From a bacterium (GTDB lineage Bacteria > Thermosulfidibacterota > Thermosulfidibacteria > Thermosulfidibacterales > Thermosulfidibacteraceae): DNA of 8,743 nucleotides. The notes below the pieces were generated by a model. The model was given only the letters and a program-made list of their open reading frames with translations, had not been told where the DNA came from and ran no database searches. Below are positions 1 to 7,571 of this stretch, one piece after another (positions within the stretch are counted from its first letter, which is position 1; every line of letters starts with the position of its first letter). A program made the position numbers and the translations under genes. The stretch is from assembly GCA_027022065.1 (NCBI GenBank), contig JALVZS010000125.1, positions 1-8,743 on the forward strand, given 5' to 3'.

Positions 1-343
1 CCCTGGCGGATGTGGCAACGGTTATAGGAGATTTTCCCTCCCTCTCCTCAATAAACCTAATTGCATCCTCAAAATAGGGGACAGCCTTCACCAGCTTCAA
101 GGCCTCGTCCCTGGTAGGATTGTAAACGGCACCAAACCCACTTTTCCAATGGGATGTTATACGCTCAACCATGGCCATTTGAGAGCCCAGTGGAGTGACC
201 ATTATCAAGCCCTTTCCCTCATAAGTTCTCACAAGCCTTGCAAGATCATGGATATCTAAATTGGTTATAGAAGATACCACAATCCTTTTCCTTTTGTCGT
301 AAACGGGATAGTGCACAAGAACAAGGTAGAAGTTTACCCCCAT
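1..343 (-). CDS. SPOUT-superfamily RNA methyltransferase, TrmD-linked (COG4752 type), 3' end outside window
   Basis: The reading frame opens at ATG 343-341 and runs off the left edge after 114 residues, so only the N-terminal part is seen. It begins [17 protein letters not shown] and continues with [26 protein letters not shown] and [13 protein letters not shown]. These resemble the family annotated as RNA_Me_trans / COG4752, predicted SAM-dependent SPOUT RNA methyltransferases. That family is often encoded directly after trmD and before rplS. The SAM-binding trefoil knot should lie in the missing C-terminal part. Its start lies inside trmD, overlapping it by 10 bases in another frame, so the two are very probably translationally coupled. 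The RNA target is not known from the sequence. Family assignment is by eye; I am fairly sure of it, less sure of the function. Confidence 0.8.
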
Positions 344-1068
344 TCCTTTCCCTTTATTATCTGAAAAAGCATCCTCTTATCTTCATCACTTAGAGCTGCT
401 CTAGCCAGAAGATCGGGCCTTTTAAAAAACGTCTCCTTCACCTGCTGAAGTCTTCTCCACTTTCCTATACGGGCATGATCCCCACTCAAGAGAACCTCCG
501 GCACCTTGTATCCACGAAAAACCCTAGGCCTTGTAAACTGAGGATACTCCAAAAGCCCCCCCTCAAAGGACTCATCCGTCAAGGAGTCCCTGCATCCTAA
601 AACCTCAGGAACGAAGCGTGAAACGGCATCTATTATGCAGCATGCTGCAAACTCTCCCCCCGAAAGCACGAAATCACCCACACTTATTAAGTCGTCCACA
701 AAAAAGGAAACCCTCTCGTCAACCCCTTCGTATCTTCCGCAAACAAGGCATATATCTTCAATACCTGCAAGCTCCTTAGCCATCCTGCTGTTGAAGGGCT
801 TCCCCTTTGGAGAAAGTAAAAATACCTTTGCATCAGGCGCCTTTTCCCTCACATACTCTATAGCCTTCACCAGTGGTTCAGGCTTCATCACCATACCCGC
901 TCCACCGCCGTAGGGCTCGTCATCCACGGTTCTGTGTCTGTCCTCGGTAAAATCTCTGGGATTAACAAGAACAACCTCAACCCTTCCCGCCTCTATAGCC
1001 CTTCCCAAAACACCAAAGTTCAGGCAGGAAAACAGCTCTGGAAATATGGTGATCACGAAGAATCTCAC
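334..1068 (-). CDS. trmD: tRNA (guanine-37-N1)-methyltransferase TrmD
   Basis: This enzyme methylates G37 next to the anticodon with S-adenosylmethionine and so prevents +1 frameshifting. It acts as a dimer in the cytoplasm. At 244 residues it has the usual bacterial length. Visible motifs are the N-terminal [11 protein letters not shown], the [12 protein letters not shown] segment near residues 54-65, and the knot motifs [11 protein letters not shown] (110-120) and [11 protein letters not shown] (129-139). The lid and catalytic region is [16 protein letters not shown] (166-181). The acidic pair D165/E166 lies just before the Ser-Phe, where E. coli TrmD has its catalytic Asp169. The start is GTG (1068-1066), which overlaps the TGA stop of rimM by four bases and has a GAGGG-type ribosome site inside the rimM end. 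The downstream SPOUT gene overlaps its stop. Identification is firm. Confidence 0.97.
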
Positions 1069-1568
1069 AACATGCCCTCTATAATGCGGACAACCATTCT
1101 GCCAGTGTCCTTATCTATCTCTTCCGTGAAAACAGAGGGTATAAGAACCTCCCTCTCCCCGTCCCTGACCACATAGATATCGTGGGCACCTGTGGCCATT
1201 ATATCCTCAACAACCCCTATAAACTCTCCTTCGGTGGAGTATACCTCAAGCCCCACAATCTCAAACCAGTAAAACTCCCCATCCTCCAAAGGCACCAAAT
1301 CCTCATACTTAACCTCAAGAAACCACCCCTTGAAGAACTTTACCGCTTCTGGAGTGTTTAAGCCTTTGAATTTTATAATAAAGGATCTGTGATGGGGCCT
1401 GATATATTCCACCTCCATGTATATACGCCTGTTGCCCCTTCTCAGATAAAAACCCTTTTGCTTTGTGATGTTCTCCGGCACATCCGTTTCAATGGAACAC
1501 TTCGCCTCTCCCCCAACACCAAAAGGGCCAAGGATTTTGCTTACTATAGCGTAACCTTCCTTTCTCAT
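1065..1568 (-). CDS. rimM: 16S rRNA processing protein RimM
   Basis: RimM helps mature the 3' (head) domain of the 30S subunit and binds ribosomal protein S19. The 167-residue product has the two-domain family layout: an N-terminal RimM barrel ([13 protein letters not shown], about residues 11-23) and a C-terminal PRC barrel. The PRC barrel shows [12 protein letters not shown] (99-110), [17 protein letters not shown] (118-134) and the hallmark VLIPSV (141-146). The ATG at 1568 is preceded by only a weak, too-close purine run (GAAAGG, 2 bases away). A strong 8-bp hairpin ends 16 bases upstream of the start, so low or regulated translation is likely. It overlaps trmD by four bases, the standard rimM-trmD coupling. 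Confidence 0.96.
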
Positions 1569-1584
1569 GGCCTTTCAAAAATTT

Positions 1585-1611
1585 AGGACGGGCCCCTGAA
1601 GAACCCGTCCT
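1585..1611 (-). promoter_or_regulatory. Hairpin between khpA and rimM, attenuator or terminator-like
   Basis: AGGACGGG (1585-1592) and CCCGTCCT (1604-1611) form a perfect 8-bp GC-rich stem with an 11-base loop. Read on the minus strand the hairpin is followed by TAAATTTTTG, a short U-rich run, and then by the rimM start codon 16 bases beyond the stem. It could act as a partial intrinsic terminator or as a structure that limits rimM translation. In E. coli the same operon makes far less RimM and TrmD than ribosomal protein, through translational control, so a similar role is an inference by analogy. Confidence 0.65.
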
Positions 1612-1648
1612 TATAATCAACCTAGCCCCCTAACCCCTGCTTTAACAG

Positions 1649-1882
1649 TTACTCAAGGATCTCCAAAACGGCTCTCTTGCCCTGTTTAGTAGCAGCAGCA
1701 GAAAGAATGGTTCTTATAGCCCTAGCGGTTCTTCCCTGTCTTCCAATTATCTTACCAAGATCCTCTGGAGCAACCCTTAACTCAAGCACACAGGTCCTCT
1801 CCCCAACAACCTCTGTTACCTCAACCTTGTCAGGATTATCGGCTATAGCTTTGGCTATCTTCTCCACAAGCTCCTTAAACAT
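1649..1882 (-). CDS. khpA: KH-domain RNA-binding protein KhpA (YlqC family)
   Basis: A 77-residue single KH-domain protein. The RNA-gripping loop [11 protein letters not shown] lies at residues 43-53 with the GxxG motif GRQG at 47-50, followed by a helix rich in Ala and Ile and a final beta strand (AVLEILE). Position between rpsP and rimM and the small size are typical of KhpA/YlqC. In Gram-positive bacteria this protein partners KhpB and influences small-RNA and mRNA stability and cell elongation; whether it does so here is unknown. The ATG at 1882 has a doubled GGAGG upstream. The copy six bases away is well placed, the second abuts the ATG. The first copy is partly inside a small hairpin (1890-1908), so its own leader may be a regulatory target. 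Confidence 0.94.
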
Positions 1883-1889
1883 CCTCCAC

Positions 1890-1908
1890 CTCCAGCTTCT
1901 AGTTGGAG
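1890..1908 (-). promoter_or_regulatory. Small hairpin covering the khpA ribosome-binding site
   Basis: On the minus strand CTCCA pairs with TGGAG, followed by an A/C mismatch and two more pairs around an AGA loop. The 3' arm contains the first four bases of the GGAGG that lies six bases from the khpA ATG. The stem is short, so it may be only marginally stable, particularly in a thermophile. Partial masking of the ribosome site is an inference. Confidence 0.4.
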
Positions 1909-1930
1909 CAAGGGGTTAGGGAGTCTTTGC

Positions 1931-2179
1931 CTATCCTCCTACAGTAACCCCTGCTTTCCTCAATACCCAGCGTGCCTGCGAAGTAGGCTGTGCACCCTTT
2001 TTAAGCCACTCCTTAGCCTTTTCAACATCCACCTTTATCTCAGGCGGCTCCTTTATAGGATCGTAATATCCCAGTATTTCAATAAATCTACCGTCTCTTG
2101 GGGCCCTGGCATCCGCCACCACCAACCTGTAGAAAGGCCTGTGTCTCTTTCCCATCCTCATCAAGCGTATCCTAACCAC
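1931..2179 (-). CDS. rpsP: 30S ribosomal protein S16
   Basis: S16 is a primary assembly protein of the 30S subunit. The 82-residue product shows the family signature: [20 protein letters not shown] at the N-terminus, [21 protein letters not shown] (about 20-40) and the C-terminal [16 protein letters not shown]. The start is GTG (2179-2177), chosen because it reproduces the conserved N-terminus and has GAGGTGAT a few bases upstream. It follows ffh after 12 bases, so the two are surely co-transcribed. It is followed by a 48-base leader for khpA. Length is normal for the family. Confidence 0.98.
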
Positions 2180-2191
2180 CCGATCACCTCC

Positions 2192-3556
2192 TCAGTGCAT
2201 AAATCTTGTAACATCAAAATCAAAGGGCAATCCCATTAATTTCTTCTTGCCCTTTTTGCCCTTTTTCAATCCCTTCATCATCTTTCTCATCTGCTGGTAC
2301 TGTTTTAATACCCTGTTAACCATCTGCACACTTGTCCCAGAACCTTTAGCAATACGCCTCTTTCTGCTGGAGTTGATTATTGATGGATTTCTCCTCTCCT
2401 CTGGAGTCATGGAGTTTATAACAGCCTCCATGTGGGCTATTTCCTTCTCATCTATGCGCACATTTTTCAACATGTTCTTCATACCACCAAGCCCAGGTAT
2501 GCCTGGAAGCATATCTATAATGCTTTCAATGGATCCCATCTTCCTCAACGCCCTCAGCTGTTCCCTCATGTCTTCCAGTGTAAACTCACCCTCCATAAGG
2601 CGCCTTTCCATTTCAGCGGCCTTTCTCTCATCAAAGGCCCTCTGCGCCTTCTCAATGAGGGTGAGTATATCGCCCATTCCCAATATGCGGTTGGCTATCC
2701 TGTCAGGATGGAAAGGCTCAAGCATCTCAATCTTTTCACCAACACCTACATACTTTATAGGCTTTCCAACAACCCTCTTTATAGATAACGCCGCTCCACC
2801 CCTTGCATCACCGTCCATCTTGGTGAGAATAACTCCTGTTATCCCCACCCTTTCATCAAAGGTCTTCGCCACATTCACTGCCTCTTGTCCCGTCATGGCG
2901 TCAACAACAAGCAATACCTCTTGGGGTTTCACCGCATCCCTTATGGCCTCAAGTTCCTGCATCATGGCCTCATCTATGTGAAGTCTTCCCGCCGTATCTA
3001 TGATAACCACATCACTGCCAGATGAAAGTGCCTGCTTAACCGCCTTAAGGGTTATATTCACCGGCGTATCCTTCTCATGAAAAACGGGAACATCTATACT
3101 TTCACCCAAAACCTTTAGCTGATCTATAGCAGCAGGCCTGTAGACATCGGCAGCCACAAGTAGGGGAGCGTGTCCCTGATTCTTCAACATGTAAGCAAGC
3201 TTCGCAGCAGTTGTGGTCTTACCTGAACCCTGAAGCCCTACCATCATAACCACCGTAGGGGGTGAGGAAGCAAAAGACAAAGGCTCGTGCTTTCCTCCCA
3301 AAAGCTCCACAAGCTTCTCATGAACACTTTTAACCACCTCTTGAGCTGGGGTAAGCCCTCCAGAAATCTCCTTACCCAAAAGCTCGGCCTTTATCTCCTC
3401 AACAACGGAACGCACCACATTCACATTAACATCTGCTTCAAGAAGGGCTATCCTTATCTCTCTAAGGACCGCCTCTATATCAGACTTGGAAAGCCTTCCT
3501 TTGCCCCCAGCCTTGCCAAAAACCCTCTGTAACTTATCAGAAAGCGCTTCAAACAT
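2192..3556 (-). CDS. ffh: Signal recognition particle GTPase Ffh (SRP54)
   Basis: Ffh binds 4.5S/SRP RNA and the signal sequences of nascent membrane proteins and delivers ribosomes to FtsY. The 454-residue product shows the three SRP54 regions. The N helical bundle spans about residues 1-95. The G domain has P-loop GLQGSGKTT (107-115), DTAGR (187-191), [10 protein letters not shown] (245-254) and GVGE (271-274). The C-terminal M domain (about 300-435) carries the methionine-rich [17 protein letters not shown] segment and the RNA-binding helix around [17 protein letters not shown] lysine-rich stretch (430-439) precedes the end DVTRFMH. The ATG at 3556 has a GGGGGTGAGG-type ribosome site. A promoter (3582-3610) lies just upstream. 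The ylxM gene found before ffh in many Firmicutes is absent; a marR gene is there instead. Confidence 0.98.
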
Positions 3557-3624: not shown

Positions 3625-4065
3625 TTAAATATCCTCTAGCACCTTAAGCCACACATCAAAGGACTTCTTCAAAATCTCCAGCTCCTCTGGCGTGAGCTTT
3701 TCTATTCCAGGAGTAACCGCCTCAGCCACCGCATCTTCAAAATCCCTGTAGAGCTTTCTCCCCTTTTGAGTAATTCTTATAATGACTTTTCTCCTGTCCT
3801 CCTTGGAGCGGTCCTTTACGATATAACCCTCATCCTCCAGCTTATTGGTTATGTTGGTAAGTTTGCTAGCCCTTATAGGAGTAAGTTTCTTCTGTAGATC
3901 ACTTAGGAACATCCTGCCCTCGGGCTCTGCATCAAGGAGGGACAGTATAAGCACTTCAAGGTTTGAAAGATCCGTAACACAGGAAAATAACTTTCTAAAA
4001 TAGGGTCTCACCAGGCGCATTCCATTCAAAATCTCTGCTATGGATCCTTTCTCCTCTACCATCAT
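3625..4065 (-). CDS. MarR-family transcriptional regulator
   Basis: The 146-residue protein has the MarR winged-helix layout. An N-terminal dimerisation helix is followed by a helix-turn-helix region (about residues 52-80, FLSDLQKKL through [17 protein letters not shown]). The wing is [16 protein letters not shown] (87-102), whose D90-R91-R92-K93 is the family hallmark, and a C-terminal helical pair completes the dimer arm. MarR proteins usually repress themselves and a divergent neighbour and release DNA when a small acid, phenol or CoA thioester binds. It is divergent from the dehydratase gene across a 92-base gap with overlapping promoters, so that cluster is its likely target. The first of two adjacent ATG codons (4065) was chosen; GAGGAGG lies just upstream. 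The ligand cannot be read from sequence. It shares its strand with ffh by position, probably not by function. Confidence 0.9.
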
Positions 4066-4143: not shown

Positions 4144-4157
4144 TCAGGAGGAGTAAA

Positions 4158-5585
4158 ATGCTTATAAGTAAAGAAGCTTATATTGAGAGATTGTCAAAAA
4201 AGCAACCCACTATCTATGTAAACGGCGAGAAAGTTTCAAACTTTGTAGAGCACCCCAACATTAAACCGATAGTTGAATCTATAGGCTTGACCTATGAGTT
4301 AGCTCTTAAAGATGAATTTAAAGAGCTAACAACCGCCCACTCCCAGTTTATTGACGAGCCTGTAAACAGATTTTTACACATCTACACCACAAAGGAGGAT
4401 TTAATAGCCAGGCTTAAACTTGCCCGCTTCTACAGCCAAAGGCTAGCCACATGTAACTACAGGTGCGTTGGCTCCGACGCCCTAAACGCCTTGTATACTG
4501 TAACCTACGAGATGGATCAAGCCCTAGGCACAGAGTACCACAAAAGACTTGTGGAGTACATAAAGTACGCCCAAAAGAATGATCTGGCCCTTTCTGGAGC
4601 CCTCACCGATGTAAAGGGCGACAGAAGCAAAAGGCCCCACGAGCAGGATGACATGTATCTAAAAATAGTGGAAAAGCGCCCTGACGGCATAGTGGTAAGA
4701 GGAGCCAAGGCTCACCAGTCAGGAGCCGTTGCGGCAGATGAAACCGTTGTTATGCCCACTATAGCTCTAAAGGAAGAAGATAAAGCCTATGCAGTAGCCT
4801 TTGCCGTTCCTGCTGGAACAGAAGGGTTAATATATGTGCTTCAGAACAATGCCTTTGAGGCAAAACGCAGGGAAAACGGAGAATGGGAGATAGGTAATCC
4901 CTATGGTGTGAGAGGCACATGCCTTATGATATTTGACAATGTTTTTATCCCCTGGGAAAGGGTTTTCATGTGTGAGGAGTACAAGTACGCAGCACCCCTT
5001 GTGGGCAACTTCGCAAACATACACAGATACGCAGGTTCGGGCTGCAAAGCGGGCTTTATGGACACAATCATAGGAGCGGCGGAGCTCATGGCAGACTACA
5101 ACGGCATAGCCAACGCATCCCACATACAGGCCAAGATCACAGAGATGATAAGGGGATGCGAAGGCTGTTACGCCTGTGCTTTAGCTGCAGGCTATGAGGC
5201 AACACAGACACCTTCAGGGGTATGGCTGCCCAACGGATTGTATTCCAATGTCTCAAAAATCCTCGGATTCACAGCCATAGGAGATGCCATTGTGTATCTT
5301 GCAGATATAGCAGGCGGTATATGCGTAACCTGCCCATCCGAAAGGGATCTAAAGAACCCAGAAATTGGCAAGTATATAGAGCACTACCTCAGAGGCAGAG
5401 AGGATATACCCACAGAGGAACGCATGAAGGTTATCAAGTTCATAGAGTACTGGGTCGCAGGTCCCCACGAGGGAGGAGCGGTTCACGGAGGAGGCTCCCC
5501 CATAACTCCCAATCTATTCATAAAGAGACTGGCAAATGTAGAGGAAAAGATAAGACTCGTAAAAGAGTTGTTGAATCTAAAATAA
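4158..5585 (+). CDS. 4-hydroxybutyryl-CoA dehydratase-like [4Fe-4S] flavoprotein, variant active site
   Basis: The 475-residue protein belongs to the HpaB/AbfD superfamily (acyl-CoA dehydrogenase fold). AbfD is a homotetramer with FAD and a [4Fe-4S] cluster that removes water from 4-hydroxybutyryl-CoA by a ketyl radical route and isomerises vinylacetyl-CoA. Aligned by eye with the Clostridium aminobutyricum enzyme (490 residues), all four cluster ligands are kept: C99, C103, H289 and C296 for C99, C103, H292 and C299. K297 matches K300, and AKAHQSG (183-189) matches the substrate region, with Ser188 for Thr190. However E257, Y296 and E455 appear to be T254, G293 and G440. Extra cysteines form CxxCxxC (334/337/340) and CxxC (389/392). 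The cluster ligands argue against a plain flavin hydroxylase. The ATG has AGGAGGAG six bases upstream. It is first in a cluster with a thioesterase and two CoA-transferases. The fold is sure, the substrate unknown. Confidence 0.85.
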
Positions 5586-6164: not shown

Positions 6165-6193
6165 TTGCCAAAAAATAAACGTTATGTTATAAG
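6165..6193 (+). promoter_or_regulatory. Promoter of the CoA-transferase gene pair
   Basis: TTGCCA (6165-6170) and TATAAG (6188-6193) are separated by exactly 17 bases, and TGT directly before the -10 box gives an extended -10 element. Transcription would start near 6200, leaving about 37 untranslated bases before the ATG at 6237. A small inverted repeat, TTAT-GTT-ATAA (6182-6192), overlaps the -10 box and might be an operator. The rest of the 144-base gap (6093-6236) is AT-rich and shows no convincing terminator. Confidence 0.7.
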
Positions 6194-6236
6194 TAGCCTA
6201 GAGTATGACTCAATAATTAATTCTGGAGGTGTGCCC

Positions 6237-7571
6237 ATGGATGGAGGGCTCTCATATCAGCAACTTATCAGAGAAATCTTTTCCCCTGAGAAACTGTTTG
6301 AGAAACCTGAAGCTCTCAAGGGTGTTAGGATACTGGATGTAACCGCAGTTGTTCTAGGCCCAGCAGCAGTGGACTATCTAGCGGAGTTTGGAGCAGAGGT
6401 GATCAAGTTTGAACCTGCCCATGGAGATCAGATGAGATATGTTACTCCCTTTGCCTACTTCTGGAAGAACATGTCCCCCGGACTATGGGAGCAGCAGCAC
6501 AACAGGTATTGGGTAGGCATGCACCTGGGGCATCCAAAGGCAAAGGAGCTATTCTTAAAATTCGTTGAAAAAGCAGACGTTGTGGTTGACAACCTCACCC
6601 CTGGAAGGATGGCAGAGTGGGGAGTGGATTACAGTGTTTTAAGAGAGGTAAATCCCAGAATCATTCAGCTTCATGTATCAGGCTTTGGAAGCTGGGGCCC
6701 CTGGACGGGAAGAACCTCTTACGACGCCATAGCCCAATCCATGGGAGGGCTGGCCTATATCACAGGATTTGAGGACAGGGGACCTATAAAGTCAGGTGTA
6801 TGGATCGCAGACTGGCTCAACGGGCTAATGTGCGCGGTGGCCATAGTTGCAGCCCTAAACTACAGGGAAAAGACAGGAGAGGGCCAATTCATAGACATGC
6901 AGCAGGTGGAAAATGTCATAAGAATGCTGGACTGGACCTGGATCTACACGTACCTCACAGGCAAGAACAGGCCAAGGGCAGGCAACAGAGACTTAGCCAT
7001 ATGTCCCTCTGATCTGTTTGACTGCGCGGATGGATGGGTTGCCATAACGGCATTTACAGAGGAAGAGTTTAAAGGGCTTTGTAAGGCCATGGGAAGGATG
7101 GATCTATTTGAGAAGTACCAAGACCCAACAGAAAGACTAAAAGATGAAAACGCAAGAGCGTTACTGAAGGAGATTGCAGAGTGGGTAAAAGATAAGCGCT
7201 CCGATTACATCGTTCAGCTTGCAGACAAATACGGATTTGCAGCAACAAAGGTGCTTGAGGTAGACGATGTTTACCACGGAGAGCACTTCAACGAAAGGAA
7301 AGCTATACAGGAATACGAGGATGAGGTTTATGGCTACTTCAAGGAGCAGGCCTATCCTCCCAGGATGAGCCAAACCCCAAGCAGGGTGAAGTGGGGAGCA
7401 AGACCTGTGGGATTTGATAATGAGTTTGTCTTTGTAAACATCCTTGGACTCCCCTTGGAAGAGGTGAAGAAGCTAGAGGAAGAGGGTGTGATATTCAAGT
7501 GGAATCCCGATATTCCTTCAACATGTCCGCCTCCCGATTGGGATGGCAAATCTGGAATTAAGTATCCTTAA
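6237..7571 (+). CDS. Class III (CaiB/BaiF family) CoA-transferase, first of a tandem pair
   Basis: Class III transferases move CoA between carboxylic acids through an aspartyl-CoA mixed anhydride. The 444-residue product has the N-terminal Rossmann start [20 protein letters not shown] (29-48) and [13 protein letters not shown] (52-64). [13 protein letters not shown] (139-151) follows, then [13 protein letters not shown] (161-173), whose D163 is in the place of the catalytic Asp169 of formyl-CoA transferase. The GEGQFIDMQ strand lies at 214-222 and a glycine-loop region at RAGNRD (247-252). The C-terminus has a proline-rich tail (PSTCPPPDW). The ATG at 6237 was chosen over an upstream in-frame TTG (6165) because GGAGGT lies six bases before it and the TTG falls in the promoter's -35 box. 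The next gene follows after 12 bases. Donor and acceptor acids are unknown. Confidence 0.93.

Follow-up and report, generated by a model that had tools for sequence, protein, structure and literature searches.

The stretch of DNA analysed here (the window, 8,743 nucleotides, contig JALVZS010000125.1 of the assembly GCA_027022065.1 from a bacterium of the Thermosulfidibacteraceae) carries an open reading frame (ORF) for a 475-residue relative of AbfD, the 4-hydroxybutyryl-coenzyme A (CoA) dehydratase (4HBD) of C. aminobutyricum, which has kept the ligands of the [4Fe-4S] cluster and lost the counterparts of the AbfD residues E257, Y296 and E455. The same exchange was found in a clade of bacterial and archaeal proteins, named here the T clade, which, judging by their residues, are probably a separate enzyme group that homology alone would mislabel. 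The protein of the window is read, with about even confidence, as an AbfD-type enzyme that would act on an acyl-CoA other than 4-hydroxybutyryl-CoA and yield a 2-enoyl-CoA. The 4HBD itself is oxygen-sensitive and forms crotonyl-CoA through radical chemistry.

Identity and fold of the protein

The ORF is preceded by a Shine-Dalgarno-like AGGAGG at about 4146-4152, and the Pfam domains HpaB_N and HpaB span its whole product. The best solved relatives in a phmmer search were AbfD (1U8V; 403 bits, E 1.6e-119, identity 41-42%) and the oxygen-tolerant 4HBD of N. maritimus (6VJR; 364 bits, 39% identity), and the HpaB monooxygenases reached at most 141 bits in the search against solved structures. The AlphaFold2 model, built from 52 homologues (predicted local distance difference test, pLDDT, 94.1; predicted template modelling score, pTM, 0.92), superimposed on 1U8V with a template modelling score of 0.98 in Foldseek and with Z 53.8 and a root-mean-square deviation of 1.2 (range 1.2-1.6), and on 6VJR with Z 54.8. 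Full-length homology, the AbfD fold and the retention of all four cluster ligands, equivalent to C99, C103, H292 and C299, thus place the protein in the AbfD-like family. The overall fold is also that of the 4-hydroxyphenylacetate 3-monooxygenase HpaB (Z about 41), and the matches to the Pfam domains and to TIGR02309 might suggest a flavin monooxygenase of the HpaB type; such an activity is scarcely credible, since the TIGR02309 score of 174 bits is far under the NCBIfam cut-off of 480, the aligned HpaB chains lack the equivalent ligand cysteines, the identity to them is about 24% versus 41% to 1U8V, and many relatives belong to strict anaerobes.

Active-site residues

The sequence-only reading of this stretch had singled out positions 4452-5477, whose first codon in the ORF is that of C99 and whose last is that of G440, and had claimed the loss of three catalytic acid/base residues beside an intact cluster site. 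All the residues that it named (C99, C103, S188, T254, H289, Y291, G293, C296, K297, E438 and G440) stand where it placed them. In the MAFFT alignment, C99, C103, H289, C296 and K297 correspond to C99, C103, H292, C299 and K300 of AbfD, while S188, T254 and G293 fall on T190, E257 and Y296, and Y291 on Q294; Y101 replaces Q101. Opposite E455 the protein has a deletion of four residues, by which the loop 448-455 of AbfD is shortened, and G440 is the third residue before the conserved HG. The alignments thus bear out the absence of equivalents of E257, Y296 and E455 and the exchange of T190 for serine, so that the residues of a functional 4HBD (EC 4.2.1.120) are not present; the N. maritimus enzyme, in contrast, retains Glu, Tyr and Glu (E/Y/E) at these positions as well as T190 and Q101. 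The alignments gave no E/Y/E set, and a return of Glu at 455 through gap placement was ruled out by an alignment-free count, which gave Gly in 17/17 proteins of the window's type (T/G, below) and Glu in 49/49 canonical ones. Shortened loops of their own (GTAL----xESMHGAG) were also observed in E/Y/E proteins of Bacillota near Desulfotomaculum (L046, L061, L069, L087, L090, L099, L116 and L119), and loop length alone is therefore no marker of the T clade.

The weight of these exchanges comes from the mutagenesis of AbfD by Zhang et al. in 2015, in which E257, Y296 and E455 were reportedly catalytic, the variants E257Q, E455Q and Y296W are said to have had no measurable activity, and Y296F and T190V less than 1%. 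The relay said to have been proposed there, E455-Y296-FAD-T190-E257 (FAD, flavin adenine dinucleotide), has E455 deprotonating Y296, Y296 reducing FAD, and E257 protonating FAD via T190.

Extent and phylogeny of the T clade

A search with the T-type sequences of the window's phylum and further genome searches gave about 140 usable homologues, which were sorted by the residues at positions 257 and 296, and where needed 455 (AbfD numbering): E/Y/E (49 proteins, including both solved 4HBDs, 1U8V and 6VJR), T/C (45), T/G (17), Q/I with Tyr for the ligand His (9), and Y296 without E455 (16). The T/C proteins come from Desulfosporosinus and relatives of Desulfotomaculum, from Syntrophaceae, Desulfomonile, Chloroflexota and Methanolliviera, and from the phylum of the window itself; the T/G proteins are that of the window and others from Desulfurella, Hippea, Desulfurellales and archaea with genomes related to that of Methanolliviera. 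Positions 101/190/257/296/455 read Q/T/E/Y/E in 49/49 canonical sequences, whereas the first four read Y/S/T/(C or G) in 62/62 members of the T clade, with Gly (60) or Ala (2) at 455, so that the two groups share no residue at any of the five. Y101, S188, Q229, R252, T254 and H437 (numbering of the window protein) are invariant throughout the clade, and the cluster ligands and K300 are invariant in both groups. The window protein has the full set, i.e. Y101, S190, T257, Gly at 296, no Glu at 455 and the His of the shortened loop.

The phylogeny was calculated as a quick tree, without bootstrap, from an alignment freed of the trait columns, and in it the T/G set, the T/C set and the two together each made up one side of a branch (support in the Shimodaira-Hasegawa-like approximate likelihood ratio test 99, 99 and 98, respectively). 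The T/G/G pattern therefore does define a clade, as the sequence-only reading had supposed it might, and the window protein lies in it, outside the canonical E/Y/E clade. The suggestion of a new subfamily is reasonable insofar as the clade is monophyletic and keeps the ligands, but the group, with its 62 sampled proteins, is far wider than was assumed. The T clade is a paralogous subfamily and not a drifting 4HBD, because it occurs together with E/Y/E paralogues in single genomes: in Desulfallas Bu1-1 one protein (L145) is of the T/C type and two (L150 and L155) are E/Y/E, and the archaeal genomes G170 (L187 and L207) and G165 (L189 and L206) hold both T/G and E/Y/E proteins.

These data bear on the possibility that the window protein is a true 4HBD performing the same reaction via other residues. 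The window genome, 88% complete, offers it some support, as the ORF is its sole AbfD homologue; we nevertheless consider this reading unlikely, given that E/Y/E was found in all 49 canonical proteins, both solved enzymes included, and in 0/62 clade members, that several genomes hold both kinds of protein, and that single mutants of AbfD at these sites are reportedly nearly inactive. Nor do the two solved 4HBDs carry T/G/G.

A non-catalytic or degenerate homologue is very improbable. The loss of several supposedly catalytic residues might be so explained, and in Desulfurella other AbfD paralogues occur as broken copies (L128/L129 of G041; L141, 14564-15585), one split by an internal TAA and another lying in two frames; against this, the replacement residues and the ligands are invariant across Bacteria and Archaea, and the window protein is 67-71% identical to the Desulfurellales proteins. 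Since the clade is conserved both in Bacteria and in archaea related to Methanolliviera, we regard it as functional and old.

Our literature search found no paper that separates these paralogues from 4HBD. One T/G/G member, L194 at 788,745-790,115 of the genome G180 (2,178,400 bp; 46% identity to the window protein), is, from its position, presumably HpaA-2 (AF_0885) of Archaeoglobus fulgidus. AF_0885 is one of three 4HBD homologues and is 1.5-fold induced on H2/CO2 (PMC3949148); the literature search found no biochemistry of it, and it is known there only as a 4HBD homologue.

Other variants of the AbfD-like family were also observed. The Q/I clade, with Gln for E257 and Ile for Y296, has Tyr for the ligand His292 and Val for K300, and keeps the three ligand cysteines (L012, L018-L021, L023, L024 of the window's phylum, L137, L138); in that phylum it adjoins an acyl-CoA dehydrogenase, EtfBA and a PaaK-like CoA ligase (L036-L038, L041). 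The proteins with Y296 and no E455 (L016, L017, L126, L127, L132-L136, L142, L157-L160, L200, L203) keep the cluster ligands and have Ala, Ser or Gly at 455; position 257 holds Glu or Asp, and in one case His. In Desulfurella such a gene adjoins a short-chain dehydrogenase and a glutaconate-type CoA-transferase (annotated by eye). Two more homologues, L013 and L153, have no ligand cysteines and therefore presumably no cluster.

Gene neighbourhood

The features of the window are collected in Table 1; at 2-3556 of the minus strand lies a housekeeping cluster, ffh-rpsP-rimM-trmD, with one further ORF at the window edge. The scans for promoters and terminators gave nothing above shuffled sequences.

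Table 1. Coordinates of the AbfD-like gene, its active-site features and the flanking genes
Feature	Position	Strand	Evidence and remarks
Divergent MarR-family regulator, 92 bp from the AbfD-like gene	3625..4065	-	Relatives adjoin a T/C member in L010 and CoA-transferase pairs in L234
AbfD-like (4HBD family) ORF, 475 aa	4158..5585	+	Homology, profiles, fold
C99-N-Y101-R-C103, two [4Fe-4S] ligand Cys with the clade-specific Tyr between	4452..4466	+	Y in 62/62 clade vs Q in 49/49 canonical
S188 (AbfD T190)	4719..4721	+	S in 62/62 clade vs T in 49/49 canonical
T254 (AbfD E257)	4917..4919	+	T in 62/62 clade vs E in 49/49 canonical
H289 ligand, Y291, G293 (AbfD Y296), C296 ligand, K297	5022..5048	+	At 293: G in 17 T/G, C in 45 T/C, Y in 49/49 canonical
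H437-E438-G439-G440-A441-V442-H443, shortened loop in place of the AbfD E455 loop	5466..5486	+	H437 clade-invariant, E438 in the window only
Hotdog-fold (4HBT/PaaI-like) acyl-CoA thioesterase, 154 aa	5628..6092	+	67% identical copy among the CoA-transferase genes of G002, same family
Class III (CaiB) CoA-transferase, first of pair	6165..7571	+	Best models: succinyl-CoA:mesaconate CoA-transferase (below cut-off); structures: succinate-hydroxymethylglutarate (HMG) CoA-transferase
Class III (CaiB) CoA-transferase, second of pair, cut by the contig end	7584..8743	+	31% identical to the first

The first CoA-transferase scored 236 bits against the model of the succinyl-CoA:mesaconate CoA-transferase (cut-off 700), and its best matches hint at a dicarboxylate that is short and perhaps branched. 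In most genomes of the phylum to which the window belongs, class III CoA-transferase genes form a row of four, made up of two pairs of the window type (L230-L234, L238). A set laid out like that of the window, with a flavoenzyme, two class III CoA-transferases and a thioesterase, is known as the bbu cluster of Emergencia timonensis, whose flavoenzyme eliminates trimethylamine from the C4 of an acyl-CoA (PMC8364193); BbuA, however, is of the acyl-CoA dehydrogenase family and about 10% identical to 4HBD, i.e. an analogue and not kin.

The T/G gene of Desulfurella belongs to a beta-oxidation-type operon, whose other genes encode a member of the 4-hydroxybutyrate CoA-transferase family, enoyl-CoA hydratases, a 3-hydroxybutyryl-CoA dehydrogenase, an acyl-CoA dehydrogenase, EtfAB, an acyl-CoA carboxylase, a methylmalonyl-CoA epimerase-like protein and a succinyl-CoA ligase. 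In the Syntrophaceae locus L089 the gene after the T/C member encodes a B12-dependent acyl-CoA mutase nearest to 2-hydroxyisobutyryl-CoA mutase; no conserved operon was found among the T/C neighbourhoods compared. Collectively the neighbourhoods point to CoA thioesters of short acids as substrates, and the context in the window and in Desulfurella supports an acyl-CoA substrate.

Two further proposals were tried and dropped. 3-Methylcrotonyl-CoA as a shared substrate would fit the Desulfurella carboxyltransferase, which scores 662 bits as 3-methylcrotonyl-CoA carboxylase-like, yet 672 bits against 9TPS, whose chain is named propionyl-CoA carboxylase, and the window's phylum gives only weaker matches of the propionyl-CoA carboxylase level. 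A link to the thiolase/DUF35-like pair that stands by the clade members L141 and L121 and by the CoA-transferases of L234 fails, as the window genome has no close copy of it and the pair is unlinked elsewhere.

Proposed function and mechanism

FAD and a [4Fe-4S] cluster held by three Cys and one His are the most likely cofactors of the protein, because the ligands, K300, a hydroxyl at position 190 and the fold are conserved, and we infer a CoA thioester as its substrate. The reaction would remove water, or a different leaving group, from C4, or shift a double bond from the 3,4 to the 2,3 position, or do both. The loss of Y296 and the shortening of the E455 loop should free space near the substrate, which would probably be larger or branched, because bulky Tyr296 and that loop are gone. 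The flanking CoA-transferases may charge the acid with CoA before the enzyme acts, and the thioesterase may then release CoA, all under MarR control.

The starter proposed for AbfD (E455/Y296/FAD/T190/E257) would be inoperable here. The nearby Y291 and E438, offered earlier as replacements, were rejected as not conserved in the clade, Y291 being present in 6/62 members and E438 in 1/62, the window protein itself. By their invariance Y101, H437, T254 and S188 are better candidates: Y101, which neighbours two of the cluster cysteines, is attractive as a stand-in for the redox residue, and H437 may serve as the base, while S188 and T254 could take the parts of T190 and E257. The exact substrate and the Y101/H437 relay are speculative. 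The widest form of the proposal, tentative and rather doubtful, sees in the T clade a second acyl-CoA eliminase of the [4Fe-4S]-flavin kind, wired independently, with the redox Tyr moved from 296 to 101, a Thr-Ser pair and His437 as acid/base, and a branched or longer acyl-CoA in an undescribed pathway, beside at least two more subfamilies, the set with Tyr for the ligand His and the set with Y296 and no E455.

Several points weigh against a distinct acyl-CoA enzyme of this kind. No assayed clade member was found in the literature; for the roles of Y101 and H437 conservation is the only argument; the Desulfurella operon would equally fit plain 4-hydroxybutyrate degradation; most T/C genes are solitary, without pathway neighbours; and in G002, of the same family as the window, CoA-transferases occur with the thioesterase (67%) and the MarR regulator (51%) and no AbfD-like gene beside them, so that the link of these genes to the enzyme is loose.

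Pure delta-isomerase activity and plain 4HBD activity are the strongest rivals. As an isomerase only, the protein would convert delta-3 to delta-2 enoyl-CoA, much as AbfD does in isomerising vinylacetyl-CoA, in the beta-oxidation of unsaturated or branched acids, with the cluster structural or a Lewis acid. In favour of such a role, the proposed radical-initiation residues are all lost while H292, K300 and the cluster ligands are retained; the genes are mostly solitary, and among the anaerobes that carry them are many fatty-acid oxidisers. A link to alkene degradation has also been drawn from five homologues in Desulfatibacillum, an alkene degrader (PMC3949148). We judge the isomerase improbable all the same, as it leaves unexplained both the strict gain of Y101, R252, Q229 and H437 and the pairing with CoA-transferases.

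Significance

The 4HBD serves as a marker enzyme for inferring two CO2-fixation cycles from genomes (PMC12794621, PMC9802188), and a large clade that passes as 4HBD yet lacks the starter residues would produce false calls. Five residues (Y101, S190, T257, C/G296 and no E455) tell the T clade from canonical 4HBD. The clade is, moreover, a natural multiple-mutant experiment on the mechanism of AbfD: if its enzymes still perform cluster-flavin chemistry, solutions other than the proposed Tyr-Glu starter of AbfD must exist, and if they merely isomerise, that proposal would be supported.
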